64,000 bases of DNA. Source: Intestinibacillus massiliensis (lineage in GTDB: Bacteria > Bacillota > Clostridia > Oscillospirales > Butyricicoccaceae). The position numbers and the translations under genes are program-made. Position 1 is the stretch's first letter, and the number at the start of each line of letters is the position of its first letter. Of this stretch, positions 5,444 through 55,063 are shown piece by piece. The notes beneath the pieces are model-generated. The model was given only the letters and a program-made list of their open reading frames with translations, was not told the origin of the DNA and did no database searches. The stretch spans positions 558,001 to 622,000 of the forward strand of contig JAJUJC010000001.1 in the NCBI GenBank assembly GCA_029267335.1, given 5' to 3'.

Positions 5444-5875
5444 CTGTTGTCCACGGGCGGGCCGACCTTTGTTTTTCAGCTTCTAACTTGCCTTTCCACG
5501 GTTTTCATCAACCTCGAAGTCCACAGCTTCACCCAAGCAATGGGCAAGGAGTATGTGGACTCCATCATCGCCGGCATTGATGCGGCCACGCGGTTGGTCT
5601 CCACGGGAACGTTGATGGTGTTTGGTTTCATCAAGGACTTGCAGCCCATTGCCGGATTCAGTTACGGAGCAAAACAATATGACCGCCTCAATGCGGCAAT
5701 CAAAACGTCAGTCATCTGGTCATTTGTGTTCTGCACCGTGTTCGGTGTAGCGGCGACTTTGCTTTCAACAAATATCATATCCGTTTTTACTACAGGGACA
5801 CCGTCATGGTTAAGATTGGTGGAAAAGCGCTTTTCGCAAACGGGCTGTCCTCTATTGTCTTTGGCTTTTTAGGCC
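5444..5875 (+). pseudogene. MATE-family efflux transporter fragment
   Basis: The frame carries an internal MATE-transporter segment: STGGPTFVFQLLTCLSTV, SIIAGIDAATRLVSTG, LMVFGFIKDLQPIAGFSYGA and KQYDRLNAAIKTSVIW, covering roughly the end of the N-terminal bundle and the start of the C-terminal bundle. Near 5800 the homology shifts by one frame (to VKIGGKALFANGLSSIVFGF) and then stops. The first helices and most of the C-terminal half are absent. A decayed drug/metabolite exporter. Confidence 0.75.
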
Positions 5876-6005
5876 CCAGTGATCAACAGCCTTTTTGCTC
5901 ACGACCGCCCAAACCCAAAAGGTGAACAATCCCCGCAGTAAAACGGTTGTAGCAGTCATTCCCGTAGTTCCAAAATAGAGTTTGATACATGCATTTCTCG
6001 GTTTC

Positions 6006-6506
6006 TTAGTTTTGTTCATGATACCAGCGCATAATGTCCTTCAGATGCTCCTCGCTGACGTGGTTGCCTCCGTGGAGCATCATCTTCAGCATCTCGTCCT
6101 CCTCCGGCGTGCGGTCTGCCTTGCTTTCAAGACTCTTTCCTGCGGTCTTGATCATGGTGTTCATCATAAATCGATATACGCCATGGAGCTTACTGACATC
6201 AAAGCCGCCCTGCATCGTAAAGACCGGCACATTTTCCGGCACCGAATTTGCCTTGCGCAGCTCAGCAATCTGCGAGCCTGTAGCGCCCATACAGACGCCG
6301 CAAAGTGCTTTGATCCTGTATTTTTTCGCCGCTTTTTGGAAACCCTTGACGCCGCTTGCCATGACCCAGCCGAGATAAATAATCTCCGCTCCCGCGGGGA
6401 CAGGCGATTTGTCCAAGGCGTAGACCGGCAGGCCGGTTCTCTCAGCCAGCATTTTGGCATACCGCTCCGTGGATCCTGTATTGGTTGTATAAAGAATTGC
6501 TTCCAT
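6006..6506 (-). CDS. Flavodoxin-domain protein (166 aa)
   Basis: The N-terminal phosphate-binding loop (YTTNTGSTERYAKMLAE, residues 6-22) and an alternating beta/alpha pattern identify a flavodoxin-like FMN-binding protein of the Flavodoxin_5/HemG-like type. Other marks are IIYLGWVMASGVKGF and CGVCMGATGSQ. It probably carries electrons or reduces a small substrate in the cytoplasm; the substrate is unknown. It follows the TetR gene by seven bases in the same direction, so the two form an operon presumably repressed by that TetR protein. It is intact although surrounded by pseudogenes. Confidence 0.8.
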   Translation of the reverse strand: MEAILYTTNTGSTERYAKMLAERTGLPVYALDKSPVPAGAEIIYLGWVMASGVKGFQKAAKKYRIKALCGVCMGATGSQIAELRKANSVPENVPVFTMQGGFDVSKLHGVYRFMMNTMIKTAGKSLESKADRTPEEDEMLKMMLHGGNHVSEEHLKDIMRWYHEQN

Positions 6507-6513
6507 TTTTACT

Positions 6514-7149
6514 TCACATCTTTTCCTTATTTAGTTGATAGGCGACCAGAAACTGTCGGATGTGCGCGTCAATTTGCGCCATTGTCTGCATTTCTAACTC
6601 AGGCTGCCTGTCACAGATGGACAAGCAGATCAAGACCGGGCAGACATATTGCAGCGCCATGCTATGGATGTCTCCATCTTTCATCACCCCCGCATGAATG
6701 AGCCCCTCAAACAGCTTTTCGTGGTACAGAACGAAACGATTCACATAGCGGTGCGTATACAGTGCAGAAATCGACCGTGAGCGAAACTGCTCAATGGTCA
6801 TCAGACGGCGGAAGCGGCTGATATATTCGTCGTGCAGGGAATAGCCGATCAGTTTCTGCACCTCTTGTACCAAGGCATCGGCCTTGATCTCCGAAAATCG
6901 GTTTTGATCTGCCGAGGCGTTCGTCATATGAAGATTCATTTTTTCTGTCTGCTCATCATAACGACGCTGCATCTCCACAAAAATTGCGTCGAAGATGTCC
7001 TGCTTGCTCTTGTAGTGCTTGTAAAGTGACGGCGCTTTGATACCCACAGCCTGTGCGATTTGTTCCACACTAACAGCCTCGTAACCGTATTGGGAAAACA
7101 AATCCAGCGCCGAGAGCAAGATGCGATCTTTTGTTGTCGCCTGTTTCAT
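6514..7149 (-). CDS. TetR/AcrR-family transcriptional regulator
   Basis: Residues 1-50 form the TetR helix-turn-helix (KDRILLSALDLFSQYGYEAV, SVEQIAQAVGIKAPSLYKHY, KSKQDIFDAIF); the rest is a helical ligand/dimer domain. The ATG at 7149 (MKQATTKDR) is preferred; an in-frame ATG at 7161 adds four residues. A consensus promoter and two inverted repeats lie immediately upstream, indicating autoregulation of the tetR-flavodoxin operon. A divergent DJ-1/PfpI fragment on the other side may once have been part of the regulon. Ligand unknown. Confidence 0.9.
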   Translation of the reverse strand: MKQATTKDRILLSALDLFSQYGYEAVSVEQIAQAVGIKAPSLYKHYKSKQDIFDAIFVEMQRRYDEQTEKMNLHMTNASADQNRFSEIKADALVQEVQKLIGYSLHDEYISRFRRLMTIEQFRSRSISALYTHRYVNRFVLYHEKLFEGLIHAGVMKDGDIHSMALQYVCPVLICLSICDRQPELEMQTMAQIDAHIRQFLVAYQLNKEKM

Positions 7150-7163
7150 GACTTTCTCCAAAA

Positions 7164-7211
7164 CTAATTCTCATTAGCTGCATTATAAGGCTAACAACCG
7201 TTAGCTGTCAA
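7164..7211 (-). promoter_or_regulatory. Promoter and two TetR-type operators
   Basis: On the minus strand, TTGACA (complement of 7206-7211) and TATAAT (complement of 7182-7187) are 18 bp apart. A perfect inverted repeat GCTAAC-4-GTTAGC (7190-7205) fills the spacer. A second, CTAAT-4-ATTAG (7164-7177), lies just after the -10 box. Both have 4-bp centres and share the CTAA/TTAG arms, as expected for two binding sites of one TetR dimer. Confidence 0.8.
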
Positions 7212-7229
7212 GAGACTTTGATCAAAAAG

Positions 7230-7502
7230 AGTGCCATTTCTGGCGCTCAAAATTGCGTACTGAAACGCAGCCTTCATAAAGGGCAACGCTATTATATCGA
7301 CCAGCCGTCTGTCGCGGACAACAACCTAATTACCGCAGGTGCCACCGGATGCTTGCTGTGGACGAAGCAGATCATTGAGCATTTGGGTGTTTTTCAGGCA
7401 GACACGCTCAAATCGTCGTATGCGTATTTCAGCACTGGCAAGCCCGAATCGTTTTATGGACTCATGCAAACACTGCCAACTTCAAATTGTGCTCCGCAGT
7501 AA
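7230..7502 (+). pseudogene. DJ-1/PfpI-family protein, C-terminal fragment
   Basis: Only about the last 80 residues of a DJ-1/PfpI (class-I glutamine-amidotransferase-like) protein can be read: QPSVADNNLITAGATGCLLW, then TKQIIEHLGVFQADTLKSSY and STGKPESFYGLMQTLP. The nucleophile-elbow Cys region and the whole N-terminal half are absent, and no start signal precedes the frame. It is divergent from tetR and abuts its operators. The family is assigned from memory of the conserved C-terminal motif. Confidence 0.6.
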
Positions 7503-7575
7503 TCAAAGAAAAGAGCATTTTAAGAGTACAAAATGAAGAAAACCCAAAACAGAAAAAACAAAACTTTTCTATAAG

Positions 7576-7612
7576 AAAACCCCGCTGAAATCAACGATTT
7601 CAGCGGGGTTTT
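7576..7612 (-). terminator. Intrinsic terminator after tRNA-Pro
   Basis: A 12-bp perfect hairpin (CCCCGCTGAAAT / ATTTCAGCGGGG, 5-nt loop) with A/T tracts on both sides, directly downstream of the leftward tRNA-Pro gene. Likely bidirectional. Confidence 0.85.
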
Positions 7613-7687
7613 GGTCCGAGTGACAGGATTCGAACCTGCGGCCTGATGGTCCCAAACCACCCGCGCTACCAACTGCGCTACACCCGG
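7612..7687 (-). tRNA. tRNA-Pro (anticodon TGG)
   Basis: A 76-nt cloverleaf with encoded CCA. The acceptor stem CCGGGTG pairs with CACTCGG (one G-T pair), the anticodon loop is TTTGGGA with anticodon TGG, and the T-arm is GCAGG-TTCGAAT-CCTGT. It is followed by a strong terminator. Confidence 0.95.
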
Positions 7688-7831
7688 ATATTTCATTTTT
7701 CTATCTTAGCACAATTTTCGCACACAAGCTTCACATTTCTATGACCACTGCTATGTAGGATGCCGACACGACATGATCCCCGCCGCTTACCACTTGCTGC
7801 TGCATAACCTAATGAGTGGCGGCTATTTGAT

Positions 7832-7860
7832 ATGATAACATGCAATAGATTATCTGTCAA
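7832..7860 (-). promoter_or_regulatory. Likely promoter of tRNA-Pro
   Basis: On the minus strand, TTGACA (complement of 7855-7860), 17-bp spacer, TATCAT (complement of 7832-7837). The predicted transcript begins about 140 nt before the tRNA. The rest of the 7688-8000 gap shows no supportable gene. Confidence 0.55.
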
Positions 7861-8000
7861 GTCAGCCTGTGTGATTTTATAGCGTGTATAAACTACAACA
7901 GAAAAATACAACAGGAAATTGAAGCCATTGGTCAAAAGTATATAATAGAATAAACAGCATCTTCCGGCAACGAAAGGATGATTGGAACAGAGGGACTTCT

Positions 8001-8440
8001 ATGGCACTTCGCGCGGAACTTCGTGAGAACATATCGCAGACGAAGTATTTATCGGCAGAGCATTATTTACAACATCTTTCCATTATGCGGCTGTTCTTTC
8101 TGGAGCAGCAAAAAATGCACTACCAGCTGGACAAAAACACCATTTTCCCCATCTTTGCAAGGAAACAGTCTTTTCTCAATATACCTCTGAGAAGTTGAAT
8201 GAGGATCTGGATCAGCGTTGGTAAGTTGGAAAAACCTTACTCCGCTTCAGAATCCTCATAAGATTTACCCAATCGCGGACTTTAAGAAGCGTCCGTATCA
8301 ATATATGATGACACAGCCCGTACTGGAGATTGAGCGAATGACAATTTTTCTTGCCTATAATCGGACAGAGCAGCTATTTTCGTCGATCCATCAGAGTGAA
8401 TTGGATATCCCCTGCCCCAACTCCCGGCATACCGGCAACT
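8001..8440 (+). pseudogene. DUF2397 (TIGR02677)-type protein, N-terminal remnant
   Basis: A good start (ATG at 8001) opens MALRAELRENISQTKYLSAE, then HYLQHLSIMRLFFLEQQKMH and YQLDKNTIF. The reading then jumps frame at least twice: LQGNSLFS, then QYTSEKLNEDLDQ, then LVSWKNLTPLQNPHKIYPIA, DFKKRPYQYMMTQPVLEIER and MTI from about 8218. Joined, this matches my memory of the N-terminus of the DUF2397/TIGR02677 family, part of the TIGR02677-02680 four-gene group that has been linked to a Wadjet-type SMC-like anti-plasmid system. The partner genes are not seen. Several frameshifts make it non-functional. Confidence 0.6.
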
Positions 8441-9539
8441 AAGAAAATGAACAAAAGACACAAAACGCCGGCATTTGGCGATCCCTCGCTGGATGATTCT
8501 CTGGGGAAAAGCCGCTCAGCTGCAGCAGATACTGAAGCAAACGCAACCGCTTCGCAAGCAGCTTATGGGACATATATACGATGTTAGGTCGGAATTTGGT
8601 TCACCTTTCCAGCCCGTATCGCGTGCGGCGCGCACAGTGCTGCTTTCACCTGCGTCCGCATCGACGCGGACGCACGCTTAACGCTGAAATACAGCTCCTG
8701 GTTCTCATTCTGTTTGATCCCCAAACGATACAACAGGCAACGAAATTCATACATGCACGTTTTCCTCAAAAACCCGAATATAGTTGGGCATTGTCAGCAC
8801 TCCATCCGTGCAGACAAGTTTGCAATCGGTGATGCCATCTCTTTGCGGTGTAAAATACTGCCCGTATTCCGTGCCTTACCGCAGTTTCGAAAATCTTTGA
8901 ACGAACAGTTGGGCTGAAATTTGATCGTAAATGAGGCAGTCGTAAAGTTGGAGAAGGTTCCGCCGGGCATTGCCCTGAATGGGGATTTGGGCATTTCAAG
9001 ATTCGCTGGACTACTGCCTTCCGTGTGCCTTGCTTCTATACTTGACTTGTCCGGTTTGGACGACGGGGAACAGTTCGTGCTTTCCTCCCTGACCGAAGCA
9101 GTAGTGCACTTTCTCGCGGAATACCGTGCTATCGACTGGACCACATTCCCCATCGAAAAAGTCTGTTACGCTTTTTGCGATACGCTCAGGAAATTGGGCT
9201 GCTTGTGGTATATCACAGCAACTGCGATAATTTTGGCATCGATCAAAATCAAAATGAAAAATGCAGCGATTCCATCACCAAAGAGAATATCGCGCGCGTT
9301 CGCGCTACGAATCTGCGTGATCCCGCCGCACCTCTCCCCTGCTGTGCGGTTTGTGACCTGTATTCTCGTAGAACGGCAGCGAACGGAAATCATCGAGAAA
9401 GGTACGATGTGTAAAATGGCGCGCGGTTGTATGGTGTGCTGGATGGCAGAGCGAAACATTACGATGCCGCTCAATGCGTTGTCACACGCGGTGAGTCGGC
9501 TGCGGCAAAGTGAGCGTATCCCGTTGCCCAATCACACCG
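8441..9539. other. Decayed DNA, no intact gene
   Basis: Overlapping short frames on the plus strand look like frameshifted coding DNA, for example ATKFIHARFPQKP near 8745-8785, LTEAVVHFLAEYRAIDWTTF near 9090-9150 and YHSNCDNFGIDQNQNEKC near 9210. They seem to lead into the GGDEF remnant that follows, so this may be the sensory half of the same dead signalling gene. No family is assigned for this part. Confidence 0.4.
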
Positions 9540-14734: not shown

Positions 14735-14781
14735 GAACTATACTATAATAGAAAAAGAGCACATGCTCCCTCACATTATGG

Positions 14782-14950
14782 TGATAGCACTCCACCGTGT
14801 TCTCCGGTGACAGACGACAGGATGTTCTCCGGGCCGTCCAGCACAGCCTTCGCGCACCGCTGCGGCTGCCTTCGGCGGAATACCCCTTTCTCATCCGGTC
14901 GTCGGGGGTGCTCCCTCACGGATGATACTCATGAAAACCGCGCCTCTATC
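14782..14950 (-). promoter_or_regulatory. Lysine riboswitch (L-box) controlling asd-dapA-dapB
   Basis: The minus-strand leader carries the L-box landmarks in order: GATAGAGGCGCG (start of P1/P2), ATGAGTA (loop-E-like motif), a long arm closed by GGATGAGAAAGGGG, GCCGAAGG, and finally CTGTCACCGGAGAACACGG, then TGGAGTGCTATC, which closes P1 against GATAGAG. This arrangement is that of known lysine aptamers (recalled from the T. maritima structure). Together with the downstream terminator it should switch the lysine operon off when lysine is plentiful. Confidence 0.9.
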
Positions 14951-14975
14951 TATATATGGCTGTGATATATTCATT

Positions 14976-48960: not shown

Positions 48961-51591
<2,631 letters not shown>

Positions 51592-51645
51592 TTTACTCTC
51601 TCCTTTATTTCCGCAGGGTACACGGCATCGGTTTTACCGCAATGC

Positions 51646-51885
51646 GATAAAAAAAACGGTTTTCGCCCTCATCATAGGACGAAAACCGTGTGTTTCCGTG
51701 GTACCACCTAAATTCGCGGCAATGCCGCGCACTTTGTGAGCCAATAACGCAGACCTGACGGAAGGGTTTGACTTGTTTCGACCCTTCTGCTCCAAAGCGA
51801 CCTTCACCGAATTCATCCAAAGGCTTGCACCGACCGCCTTTTCTCTGAGGATGTGTTTCCGGTTACTCCTCTTTTTCATCACATT
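51646..51885 (-). promoter_or_regulatory. T-box riboswitch of valS (Val specifier)
   Basis: On the minus strand: an AGGAGTAA AGTA-box region, a GTGCAAGCC-type apical motif, the specifier region GAAGGTCGCTTTGGAG with GTC as the Val codon, the T-box core AGGTGGTACCACGG, and a terminator hairpin (CGGTTTTCGTCC / GGGCGAAAACCG then T8). Uncharged tRNA-Val should stabilise the antiterminator. Confidence 0.92.
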
Positions 51886-51903
51886 TCACATATTTGCCTG
51901 TAT

Positions 51904-51932
51904 AGTTTATCACCCTGCCGTGCGCTTGTCAA
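51904..51932 (-). promoter_or_regulatory. Promoter of the valS T-box leader
   Basis: TTGACA (complement of 51927-51932), 17 bp, TAAACT (complement of 51904-51909). Confidence 0.75.
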
Positions 51933-51971
51933 GAGCATCACAAGCGGTGTGGAACACCAAATTCCGGTTTT

Positions 51972-54092
51972 TCAGCGGCAGATCGCATGGCCCGGCGCTT
52001 CACACGCGTCCGCAAGCATGCGCGCAGACAACTCCGGCGACTGGTACACGCCCGCGATGCCGTCCCGCGCGGTCACATGCTCCGCCAGTGCGATAGGCTG
52101 CTCCCATGCGGGTGCGGTGTGCACGGGCGCATCGACGAACACGGCGCGGTGCGACCGCCACAGCGTACCTGCTGCCATCTGGGGGGATACGCCGGCCATG
52201 CCGCACAGCACCGCCATGCCGAAGCGTTCCGCCTCGACCCGTGCGAGCACATGCTGCACCGCGTCGACACTCGTGACAAGCGCGGGGGCAGTCAGTGCGA
52301 GCACGCCGTACATCGCATCGTCCGCCGTCGCGCCTGTCTCTCCCGCCCACGCCATTTCAAGCGCGCGTAATTCCTCGCGCACGGGCGCGCATTCCGCCAC
52401 GAACGCGGCAAGCAGCGCGACCGCACGCGCAAACAGCGTTTCCCGCAGCGCATCATAGTTGGGCGCGATCCACGGACACGGGCTTTCATCGGTCGCGCGT
52501 TGCCAGTACGCACGATCGGCATAGTGCGCGCCGAAATGCTCCCGATCGTGCGCCAACGCGTCGTTTGCGTGCTGCCACGCCCCGCGCGCTTGCTCTGCCT
52601 GCGCCGCAAGCGGTGCATAGACCTGCTGCGCATCGCTGCACGCTCGCTCGCGCGCGGCAAGGGTGGCTCGCGCGTCCTCAAGCTGCGCCTGGAGCGTGTG
52701 CTCCTGCGTGCGTGCCGCCTCGACCTTGGAGAGCGCCGGATCATCGCGGAACAGGAACGACAGTGCCTTCTTGGAACGCGGCACCTCCTCTTGCAGCGTC
52801 TTGACCACGTCCTGCTGTGCCTGCAATGCACGCTCGATGTGCTCGACCTCGGCTTGCGCGTGCGCACGCGCCTGTTCCGCCTCGTCGCAGATCGTCTTTT
52901 GTGCATCCGCCGCCTGCTGTGCATCCCGCCATACCTGCTCGTCCGGTGCTTGCTCCTCGAGCGCCGCGCGCGCACGTTCGATCGCTGCACGTGCGTCCAC
53001 CGTCTCGTCATACGCGCGCTCGAATGCACGCCGTGCCTGCTCCCACGGCAGGATCTCGCTCTGCGGCGCGGTGCACGGGCTGCTGCCGAGCAGCACACTG
53101 TGCGCGCCGCATACCGCGTCGGTCAGCAGTTCGGCGGTTTGCCTCGCCTGCTCCTGCCCCGTGCACACGACGAGGATGCCGTGTGCGGTCAGTGCCGTCG
53201 CCTGCTCGCGCAGCGCAATTTCCGGGCGGTCGTATGCCGCGAGCAGCGCCGCGCGCTCCACCACATCCGCCGCGACAAGCGCGCGCAGCAGCGCGAGCTG
53301 TGTGTGTTCATCCGCGCAATCGACCGTGCCGATCGCGGAAGTATTCCGCGCACTCTGCACTGCACGCTGCTGTCCGAGCGTGAGGTGTGCGCCGTCTTGC
53401 CACTTGCCGAGCGGCACGCATGCGGGGTCGGGCGCATCCTCGGCGGGCGGGGTCGCATTGCCCGCTTCGAGCGGCGCATCCAGAAAACAGGCGAGTGCGC
53501 GCGCATCCGCAGGCACGATCCGCGTCAGATCGCGCAGACAGTCGCTGCCAAAGCCCGTGACCGCGCCGCATACGCGCGCCGCGCGCGCCCAATAGCACGG
53601 ACGGCGCAGCGGCAGACTAGTGAGTCCCAGTTTTTTGAGCGCGCGCTCCAAGGTGCTCGCGAGCGTGCTGATCGAGTCGATGCGCTTTTGCGTGCGCAGC
53701 AGCGCGTCAATCTGCGCCTCGAGCGCCGTCAAATCCTCCAGCTCTTCCGGCTCGACCGTATCGCCCGCAAGCACGCGACGATATGCCCACAGCAGGGGCG
53801 AAATGACAAACGAGCCTGCAACATACGCACCCTCACCGTCGACGGAAAAGGCACACACGCAGGTCTGCCGTTCGTCCTGCGCCGCATTCTCCCAAACTGT
53901 GTCCCGCTTCGCCGCGACGCGTGCCGCAAGCTCACTGCACGCAATGCAGCCGAGGAACACCGCAAAGCCGTTCTCCCGCGCCTCACCGTTCCACGGCAGT
54001 CCGCCCTTGGCAAGGTCAAATTCCCGTGTCTCCGGCCACGACGGCCGCAGCAGTTCGGCTTCATACCAATATTTTAGCAATTCGCTTTGCAT
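51972..54092 (-). CDS. SF1-helicase-like protein lacking ATPase motifs (706 aa)
   Basis: The framework resembles large SF1 (AAA_11/AAA_12-type) helicases with an N-terminal KYWYEAELL start, AFSVDGEGAYVAGSFVISPL (81-100), LTLGQQRAV (237-245) where the Q motif sits, a coiled coil (about 352-510), PWIAPNYDALRETLFARA (540-557) and SPQMAAGTLWRSHRAVFV (636-653). But the Walker A position (about 255-268) reads GTVDCADEHTQLALLR with no GKT, the Walker B position reads LCGMAGVSP instead of DEAGQATP, motif III reads DAPVH instead of GDPLQ, and the protein ends before motifs IV-VI. So it cannot be a helicase. ATG at 54092 chosen for AGGGG and position. The assignment is by memory of the family. Confidence 0.65.
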   Translation of the reverse strand: MQSELLKYWYEAELLRPSWPETREFDLAKGGLPWNGEARENGFAVFLGCIACSELAARVAAKRDTVWENAAQDERQTCVCAFSVDGEGAYVAGSFVISPLLWAYRRVLAGDTVEPEELEDLTALEAQIDALLRTQKRIDSISTLASTLERALKKLGLTSLPLRRPCYWARAARVCGAVTGFGSDCLRDLTRIVPADARALACFLDAPLEAGNATPPAEDAPDPACVPLGKWQDGAHLTLGQQRAVQSARNTSAIGTVDCADEHTQLALLRALVAADVVERAALLAAYDRPEIALREQATALTAHGILVVCTGQEQARQTAELLTDAVCGAHSVLLGSSPCTAPQSEILPWEQARRAFERAYDETVDARAAIERARAALEEQAPDEQVWRDAQQAADAQKTICDEAEQARAHAQAEVEHIERALQAQQDVVKTLQEEVPRSKKALSFLFRDDPALSKVEAARTQEHTLQAQLEDARATLAARERACSDAQQVYAPLAAQAEQARGAWQHANDALAHDREHFGAHYADRAYWQRATDESPCPWIAPNYDALRETLFARAVALLAAFVAECAPVREELRALEMAWAGETGATADDAMYGVLALTAPALVTSVDAVQHVLARVEAERFGMAVLCGMAGVSPQMAAGTLWRSHRAVFVDAPVHTAPAWEQPIALAEHVTARDGIAGVYQSPELSARMLADACEAPGHAICR

Positions 54093-54187
54093 CGTCACTC
54101 TTGCCCCTTGTCTGATTTGTTCACAGTTTCCTCTACTATACCACAAATATCGCGTGCAAAAAAGCCTGTTTTTTGCCAAATAGTTAC

Positions 54188-54222
54188 AAAAAAGCCCGAT
54201 CTGAAGCATCAGATCGGGCTTT
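54188..54222 (-). terminator. Terminator of tRNA-Cys
   Basis: Hairpin AAAGCCCGATCTG / CAGATCGGGCTTT followed on the minus strand by a T-run. Confidence 0.9.
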
Positions 54223-54228
54223 CGCTAC

Positions 54229-54302
54229 TGGAGGTACCACCCAGAATCGAACTGGGGATCAGGGAGTTGCAGTCCCACGCCTTACCGCTTGGCTATGGTA
54301 CC
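54229..54302 (-). tRNA. tRNA-Cys (anticodon GCA)
   Basis: A 74-nt cloverleaf with CCA. Acceptor GGTACCA / TGGTACC, anticodon stem GGGA / TCCC around CTGCAAC with anticodon GCA, T-loop TTCGATT. Followed by a terminator. Confidence 0.95.
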
Positions 54303-54367
54303 ATTCACAAGTGCCTGTTAAGTATAATCCAGGCGCGTGCATTTGTCAACCATATTTTTTGAAAATT

Positions 54368-54781
54368 TTACGCGTTTACGCGCGCAAACGACAGATAGCG
54401 CGTCCCCTGAAACGTCAGCTTGCCGCGATCGCCCTCCACAAGCAGGCCGTACTGTGTATCCGGCATCTCAAATTCCATACGGTCGCCGCTTTCTACCTCA
54501 AACGTGACATAGTAGCGCGTTACGCTGTGATGCATGTGCATTTGATCGACATCCCCGTGATGATGCATCGTAACGTCCGCACGCTTTGTAACGACGCGCG
54601 CCTCGACCGTGAGCACGGGTGAAGTGTTGTTTCGGTTCCATTGCCCGATGCCGCGCACGAGAACCACGACGATGCTCCCCAAAACCACGATGCCGATATA
54701 CGCTCTTTGCACGCAAGCAAGGGTTTTATCGCGTGATTTTTGCGATTTTTTCAAAAACGCTTGCAAAACCATGTCCAACAT
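54368..54781 (-). CDS. DUF2500 family membrane-anchored protein (137 aa)
   Basis: One N-terminal helix (AYIGIVVLGSIVVVLVRGI), then the DUF2500 domain: TVEARVVTKRADVTMHHHGD, RYYVTFEVESGDRMEFEMPD, YGLLVEGDRGKLTFQGTRYL. Function unknown. The start is ambiguous: ATG codons at 54781 and 54772 both lie inside a perfect palindrome and neither has a good ribosome-binding site. Divergent from the pheST leader, whose promoter overlaps this gene's start. Confidence 0.85.
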   Translation of the reverse strand: MLDMVLQAFLKKSQKSRDKTLACVQRAYIGIVVLGSIVVVLVRGIGQWNRNNTSPVLTVEARVVTKRADVTMHHHGDVDQMHMHHSVTRYYVTFEVESGDRMEFEMPDTQYGLLVEGDRGKLTFQGTRYLSFARVNA

Positions 54782-54789: not shown

Positions 54790-54805
54790 AATTTTTATAT
54801 TGAAA

Positions 54806-55063
54806 CCATGCGATGAACAGGGAAAGTACCCCGCGCCCCTTCCTGCCAGAGAACGGCGGTCACCGGCTGCAAGCCGCCCCAGGAAGCCCCGGACGAAGTT
54901 CCCCTGCGAGCAGAAGCTGTGAAAGCCCCGCGCCGCGTAGCAGTTTCCGTCTGACCGACGTTATCCGGTCCAATGAGTGCCCGCTTGCGCGGGAATCAGG
55001 GTGGTACCACGGAAGAACTATGCCTTTCGTCCCTCATATTTTACGGGATGAAAGGCTTTTTTT
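54806..55063 (+). promoter_or_regulatory. T-box riboswitch of pheST (Phe specifier)
   Basis: Features in order: AGGGAAAGTACC (AGTA box), GGCTGCAAGCC apical motif, GGACGAAGTTCCCCTGCGAG with TTC as the Phe specifier, the T-box core AGGGTGGTACCACGG (about 55000-55014), and the terminator GCCTTTCGTCCC / GGGATGAAAGGC then T7 (55022-55063). Confidence 0.92.

Follow-up and report, generated by a model that had tools for sequence, protein, structure and literature searches.

A probable pseudo-helicase descended from a Mokosh-II-like superfamily-1 helicase in the genus Intestinibacillus

Superfamily-1 (SF1) helicase folds that have lost most or all of their motifs are known from AddB and RecC, in which they are kept for the non-motor recognition of Chi (PMC4824097), which gives precedents for the kind of repurposed pseudo-enzyme that the first-pass annotation did not know to be described. 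The protein analyzed here, encoded in a 64,000-nucleotide stretch of an Intestinibacillus contig (the window), is likewise an SF1 fold lacking most or all motifs, but AddB and RecC each retain two RecA-like domains and act within a helicase-nuclease complex as one of its subunits, whereas the window protein is without the second RecA-like domain (RecA2). Nor was a gene for a partner subunit of the AddA or RecB type noted beside the frame. Unlike AddB and RecC, the window protein derives from a Upf1-like lineage. Its nearest solved folds, those of the SF1B helicases senataxin, IGHMBP2 and Upf1, differ from it in belonging to active ATPases. The Mokosh type II protein MkoC (PADLOC PDLC03924) has a helicase part that matches intact homologues of the window protein with an E-value of 1.6e-61, whereas with the window protein itself MkoC gave a weak match in the coiled-coil region (E 0.0032), by which the protein is not recognized as an MkoC-like helicase. 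For the PLD nuclease domain that forms the C-terminal part of MkoC, no Pfam match was obtained in the window protein or in the intact congeneric homologue. We know of no described case of a pseudo-helicase in the stand-alone Mokosh-II-like family, and a small literature search returned no described inactivated member of it.

The window protein is encoded on the minus strand by an open frame of 706 codons that runs from an ATG at 54090-54092 to a TGA at 51972-51974 and contains no internal stop. Searches with this protein alone gave no useful match to Pfam or to PDB sequences, only coiled-coil families in NCBIfam and PHROGs, and no relative in a scan of the genome collection, and because these searches were uninformative the kinship to helicases becomes visible only through an intact relative. 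Such a relative, of 1,015 amino acids (1,019-amino-acid open frame), is present in the congeneric Intestinibacillus massiliensis (NZ_LT707050.1), and the product of the frame (51972..54092, minus strand) aligns with it end-to-end over the common part with 31% identity in 806 columns (E 4e-101). The I. massiliensis protein is an intact SF1 helicase with AAA_11 and AAA_12 domains and the MkoC match given above, and the sequence matches of the intact homologue are to SMUBP-2, Dna2 and NAM7/Upf1. A second intact homologue, of 1,030 amino acids and 47% identical to the one from I. massiliensis, was found in Candidatus Butyricicoccus avicola. Both intact helicases have the same N-terminal domain, coiled-coil insertion and order of RecA1 segments as the window protein, but they keep all motifs and RecA2, which the window protein is without; the tRNA-Cys neighbor is shared with I. 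massiliensis. Judged by this alignment, the frame is a truncated homologue of an SF1 helicase of about 1,000 amino acids and ends ahead of RecA2, as had been proposed before any homologue was in hand. A second, intact paralogue was not found in the window's own genome. Long frames on the antisense strand were considered as the gene and rejected, as homology, codon usage and promoter all favor the minus-strand frame.

The first-pass annotation had described an ATPase-dead protein with the SF1 order of conserved segments and altered Walker A, Walker B and motif III sequences, and the alignment bears this out in detail. The strings on which it relied lie at residues 237-245 (LTLGQQRAV), 258-270 (DCADEHTQLALLR), 629-637 (LCGMAGVSP) and 654-658 (DAPVH), and when the protein is aligned to an intact homologue the first of them sits exactly on the Q-motif and the altered strings exactly on NGPPGTGKTT of Walker A, IIDEAGQA of Walker B and VGDPLQVEP of motif III. 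At motif I/Walker A (53286..53324, minus strand), VNGPPGTGKTTLL is near-invariant among the 18 relatives that cover the site, all of which (18/18) have NGPPGTGKTT, whereas the window protein reads VDCADEHTQLALL, with DCADEHTQLA at the NGPPGTGKTT position and all ten residues replaced. Motif Ia (53136..53180, minus strand) reads GILVVCTGQEQARQT in place of GILVASNNNGAVENI in the alignment with relatives. At motif II/Walker B (52182..52214, minus strand), alignment and a six-frame check both indicate that AVLCGMAGVSP replaces LIIDEAGQAVP, so that DEAGQA has become CGMAGV and the DE has changed to CG, and at motif III (52110..52142, minus strand) VFVDAPVHTAP stands for VVVGDPLQVEP, with GDPLQVEP turned into DAPVHTAP and the GD gone. 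The patterns GxxxxGK[TS] of Walker A, DE of Walker B and GDxxQ of motif III are thus each absent from the protein. A compensated frameshift that hides the motifs was rejected, since none of the six frames of 51401-54400 contains a P-loop or DExx pattern and no other frame matches the motifs. RecA2 with motifs IV-VI is missing, and at most nine matching residues lie beyond the TGA. Four intact homologues share 34 invariant residues in motifs I, Ia, II and III and 115 outside them; the window protein retains 3 of the former and 65 of the latter (Fisher p=3.7e-7), and by these counts the loss is targeted to the motifs and not uniform. That the site still binds or hydrolyzes nucleotide through an unusual motif is scarcely credible. 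The Q-motif does retain Q241 and Q242, but NGPPGTGKTT is replaced throughout, motif II has no DE and motif III no GD, and RecA2, where the arginine finger would lie, is missing.

Several other parts of the protein are retained. Residues 1-225 (53418..54092, minus strand) form the N-terminal domain of the helicase family, and of the residues conserved in three intact homologues, 24 of 37 are kept in residues 1-115 but only 5 of 19 in residues 116-225. The Q-motif-like LTLGQQRAV, with Q241 and Q242, aligns at 53358..53384 (minus strand). It is followed by the coiled-coil arm (residues about 350-520; 52533..53045, minus strand), which consists of confidently modeled helices and contains no lineage-specific deletion, and by a conserved helical segment with the pattern CPW..YDALRE.LF..A..L..AFV..LW.G (residues 539-584; 52341..52478, minus strand), around which 14 of 19 conserved residues are kept (residues 546-585). 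Kept blocks lie in residues 1-115 of the N-terminal domain, in the surroundings of the Q-motif, in VERAALL.AY.RPE, in the arm and in the CPW...YDALRE segment.

An AlphaFold model calculated from 12 sequences (pLDDT 81, pTM 0.72) showed the arm (residues 350-520) and most of the N-terminal domain with confidence and core strands in RecA1 order. It replaced a model from three sequences that was poor (pLDDT 60.6) and for which Foldseek matches were meaningless. The top PDB match of the 12-sequence model was senataxin (Foldseek probability 1.00, E 6e-3, TM 0.23), with IGHMBP2 and Dna2 lower, and a Foldseek comparison with viral models returned for the most part noise from coiled coils and ATPases. 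The structural comparison that the first-pass annotation had called for places an SF1 helicase on top, although the E-value is weak and the TM score low; the predicted fold speaks for an SF1-type core, is weak as stand-alone proof, and leaves the sequence evidence to carry the claim.

To distinguish selection from decay, codon positions were compared with those of the intact homologue. Distances at positions 1/2/3 were 0.55/0.63/0.63 for the motif codons and 0.50/0.41/0.65 for the other 661 codons, whereas between the two intact homologues they were 0.00/0.03/0.50 for motif codons and 0.44/0.38/0.64 for other codons. First and second positions of the motif codons are thus about as divergent as third positions, and the other codons exceed the values of the intact pair only slightly; the motifs are randomized and the remainder constrained but accelerated. 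Outside the motifs, 140 lineage-specific changes were counted on the window lineage against 55, which indicates much relaxed constraint; as a yardstick between the two species, a folC-like neighbor is 61-71% identical and valS 90%. In a three-taxon branch model, omega = 1 for the window branch was rejected at codons outside the motifs (2dlnL 49.6), whereas the motif codons gave no rejection (1.3). A short recent neutral phase is compatible with this test, and no weight attaches to the omega values as such, since saturation of the synonymous sites drove branch lengths to their bound. For the selection check proposed at the outset, the residue counts, this model and the results of the next paragraph lend strong but indirect support to purifying selection after catalysis was lost.

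In favor of a long-standing neutral pseudogene whose frame is kept open by GC bias stand the high GC content (68%) and the long antisense frames. When neutral evolution was simulated to the observed loss (46-57% of invariant residues kept) at equilibrium GC contents of 45-80%, however, a mean of 5-21 stops accumulated, compared with zero observed, and stop-free runs occurred only at 80% GC when starting from the frame's own codons, in 0.7-2.7% of cases. Simulation to the motif-level loss gave 15-36 stops at 45-68% GC, again against zero. Even at an equilibrium GC of 70% about 8-11 stops would be expected at the observed loss, and so the earlier statement that GC bias alone keeps frames open here does not hold for this frame; the accompanying view that the gene is not simply a decayed one is borne out. 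In addition to the non-uniform loss, flanking intergenic DNA has 35-47% GC, whereas GC3 is 0.76 at replaced and kept codons alike, and all seven lineage-specific deletions, of 4 to about 30 residues each, are in frame. Codon usage of the frame, scored with a model trained on window genes only, was 0.516 bits per codon compared with a gene median near 0.45, and was about the same at replaced codons. Taken together, these data make prolonged neutral drift very unlikely. The reading that we consider probable is instead a pseudo-helicase, a Mokosh-II-like SF1 descendant without RecA2 and without the ATP motifs of RecA1 that is probably still made as a protein and likely has a non-motor role.

The gene is located between a tRNA-Cys gene (GCA anticodon; 54229..54302, minus strand) and the valS T-box leader (51672-51888). 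An extended -10 element, TGGTATAGT (54135..54143, minus strand), lies 43 nucleotides ahead of the ATG, and the intact homologue of I. massiliensis, which is preceded by an identical tRNA-Cys, has TGATATAAT after that tRNA. The wider neighborhoods nevertheless belong to different tRNA-Cys loci, and the tRNA-Cys neighborhood was dropped as evidence for a conserved position. In I. massiliensis, the tRNA-Cys that corresponds to the one in the window is followed about 20 bases later by the valS T-box with no intervening gene, and the helicase is found behind the other tRNA-Cys, within a Phe-Gly-Cys tRNA cluster. At the second site (Phe-Cys) of the window's genome, identified as the same site by a flippase-like gene nearby in both genomes, a glycosidase-like gene occupies the place of the helicase. 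The helicase is therefore attached to different, identical tRNA-Cys genes in two Intestinibacillus species (loci: window 51895-54228; L057 4209-4527; L004 8494-11786; L064 5563-5745), which suggests recombination between identical tRNA-Cys copies as a likely route by which the gene moved. Divergent T-box leaders, of valS (51672-51888, minus strand) and of pheS (54804-55037, plus strand), flank the gene and the tRNA-Cys, a pairing also kept in I. massiliensis. Elsewhere in the window, a lysine riboswitch is present at 14777-14956 on the minus strand (Rfam RF00168, 88 bits).

These different chromosomal places, next to the valS tRNA-Cys here and in the Phe-Gly-Cys cluster in I. massiliensis, together with the patchiness of the helicase family, which is represented in 3 of the 87 genomes from this bacterial family, could also mean that a member of an already-dead subfamily arrived by horizontal transfer and that the loss took place outside the genus. 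As each of the two genes is the sole homologue of the other in the genus, as the two have the -10 element in common and lie behind tRNA-Cys genes of identical sequence, and as shared residues favor I. massiliensis over the next relative by 84 to 55, we regard such a transfer as unlikely; it would in any case be compatible with a selected pseudo-helicase.

The 3' end of the gene bears on its age. Past the TGA, at 51936..51962 (minus strand), IWCSTPLVM resembles LWLGCPLVM of the intact homologue and might be a helicase remnant (p about 0.003 when compared with the colinear stretch and 0.01-0.03 when compared with the whole C-terminus). Close by, a promoter-like TTGACA-17-TAAACT (51904..51932, minus strand) precedes the valS T-box leader and resembles the promoter region of tRNA-Cys, with about 37 of 49 positions alike between 51889-51945 and 54303-54374 (p 0.003-0.02); it is perhaps a duplicate left by insertion. 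The position of the frame end near this promoter and the nine-codon match past the TGA can, with moderate confidence, be read as a scar left when RecA2 was removed. If the helicase match does continue past the TGA, the C-terminus seen today could be of recent origin and the gene could have died only lately. The protein might then have been a pseudo-helicase for a time, with the TGA truncation and the valS junction recent, and the gene would now be a young pseudogene. To this extent a dying relic is suggested by the nine residues, by a frame end that abuts an apparent copy of the tRNA-Cys promoter, and by the lineage-wide acceleration, but there is no stop or frameshift ahead of the TGA, the -10 element is shared, and codon usage is normal at replaced codons; we hold it to be the less likely account, though one that deserves some weight.

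The search for orthologues proposed by the first-pass annotation did yield homologues, with all motifs intact, and their distribution is patchy. Beyond the three genomes mentioned, a small number of remoter homologues is present at the level of the order and the class. Plasmids commonly carry relatives at about 28-36% identity, and such relatives also occur in viral contigs, as expected of a mobile or defense gene; a scan of viral contigs with the first alignment returned no relative. More than 500 Klebsiella plasmid records, for example Klebsiella pneumoniae CP067827.1, carry relatives of the intact helicase (28-30% identity); these plasmids are mostly conjugative, and the annotation of the relatives goes no further than helicase or AAA protein. 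A close homologue (L025 of genome G490, 5875-8986), which shares 43-51% identity with the intact helicase, is frameshifted in the coiled-coil region and split into frames of 564 and 499 amino acids.

For the pseudo-helicase reading, the course of events may have been as follows. A gene fragment would have been set down beside the tRNA-Cys upstream of valS, and with RecA2 lost, ATP hydrolysis would have become impossible and the motif residues would have been left to drift to randomness, while the RecA1 core may have been trimmed through in-frame deletions. Binding to a partner protein or to nucleic acid would have kept the N-terminal domain, the arm and the helices that carry the arm under constraint. 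By analogy to AddB and RecC, which use dead SF1 domains for DNA binding, the role is most likely that of a non-motor scaffold, sensor or inhibitor. Somewhat more tentatively, a stand-alone defense-type SF1 helicase may have been converted into a motor-less half core with an arm and taken on a new role, for example as inhibitor, sensor or scaffold in phage defense or RNA metabolism, and would then be the first Mokosh-II-like pseudo-helicase to be described. The locus offers a clean case that shows which parts of a large helicase stay constrained once the motor is gone, and it points to the N-terminal domain, the arm and its helical carrier as the modules with which the family as a whole is likely to bind. 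The presence of an intact and a dead member within a single genus makes it testable what a defense-type helicase does without ATP.
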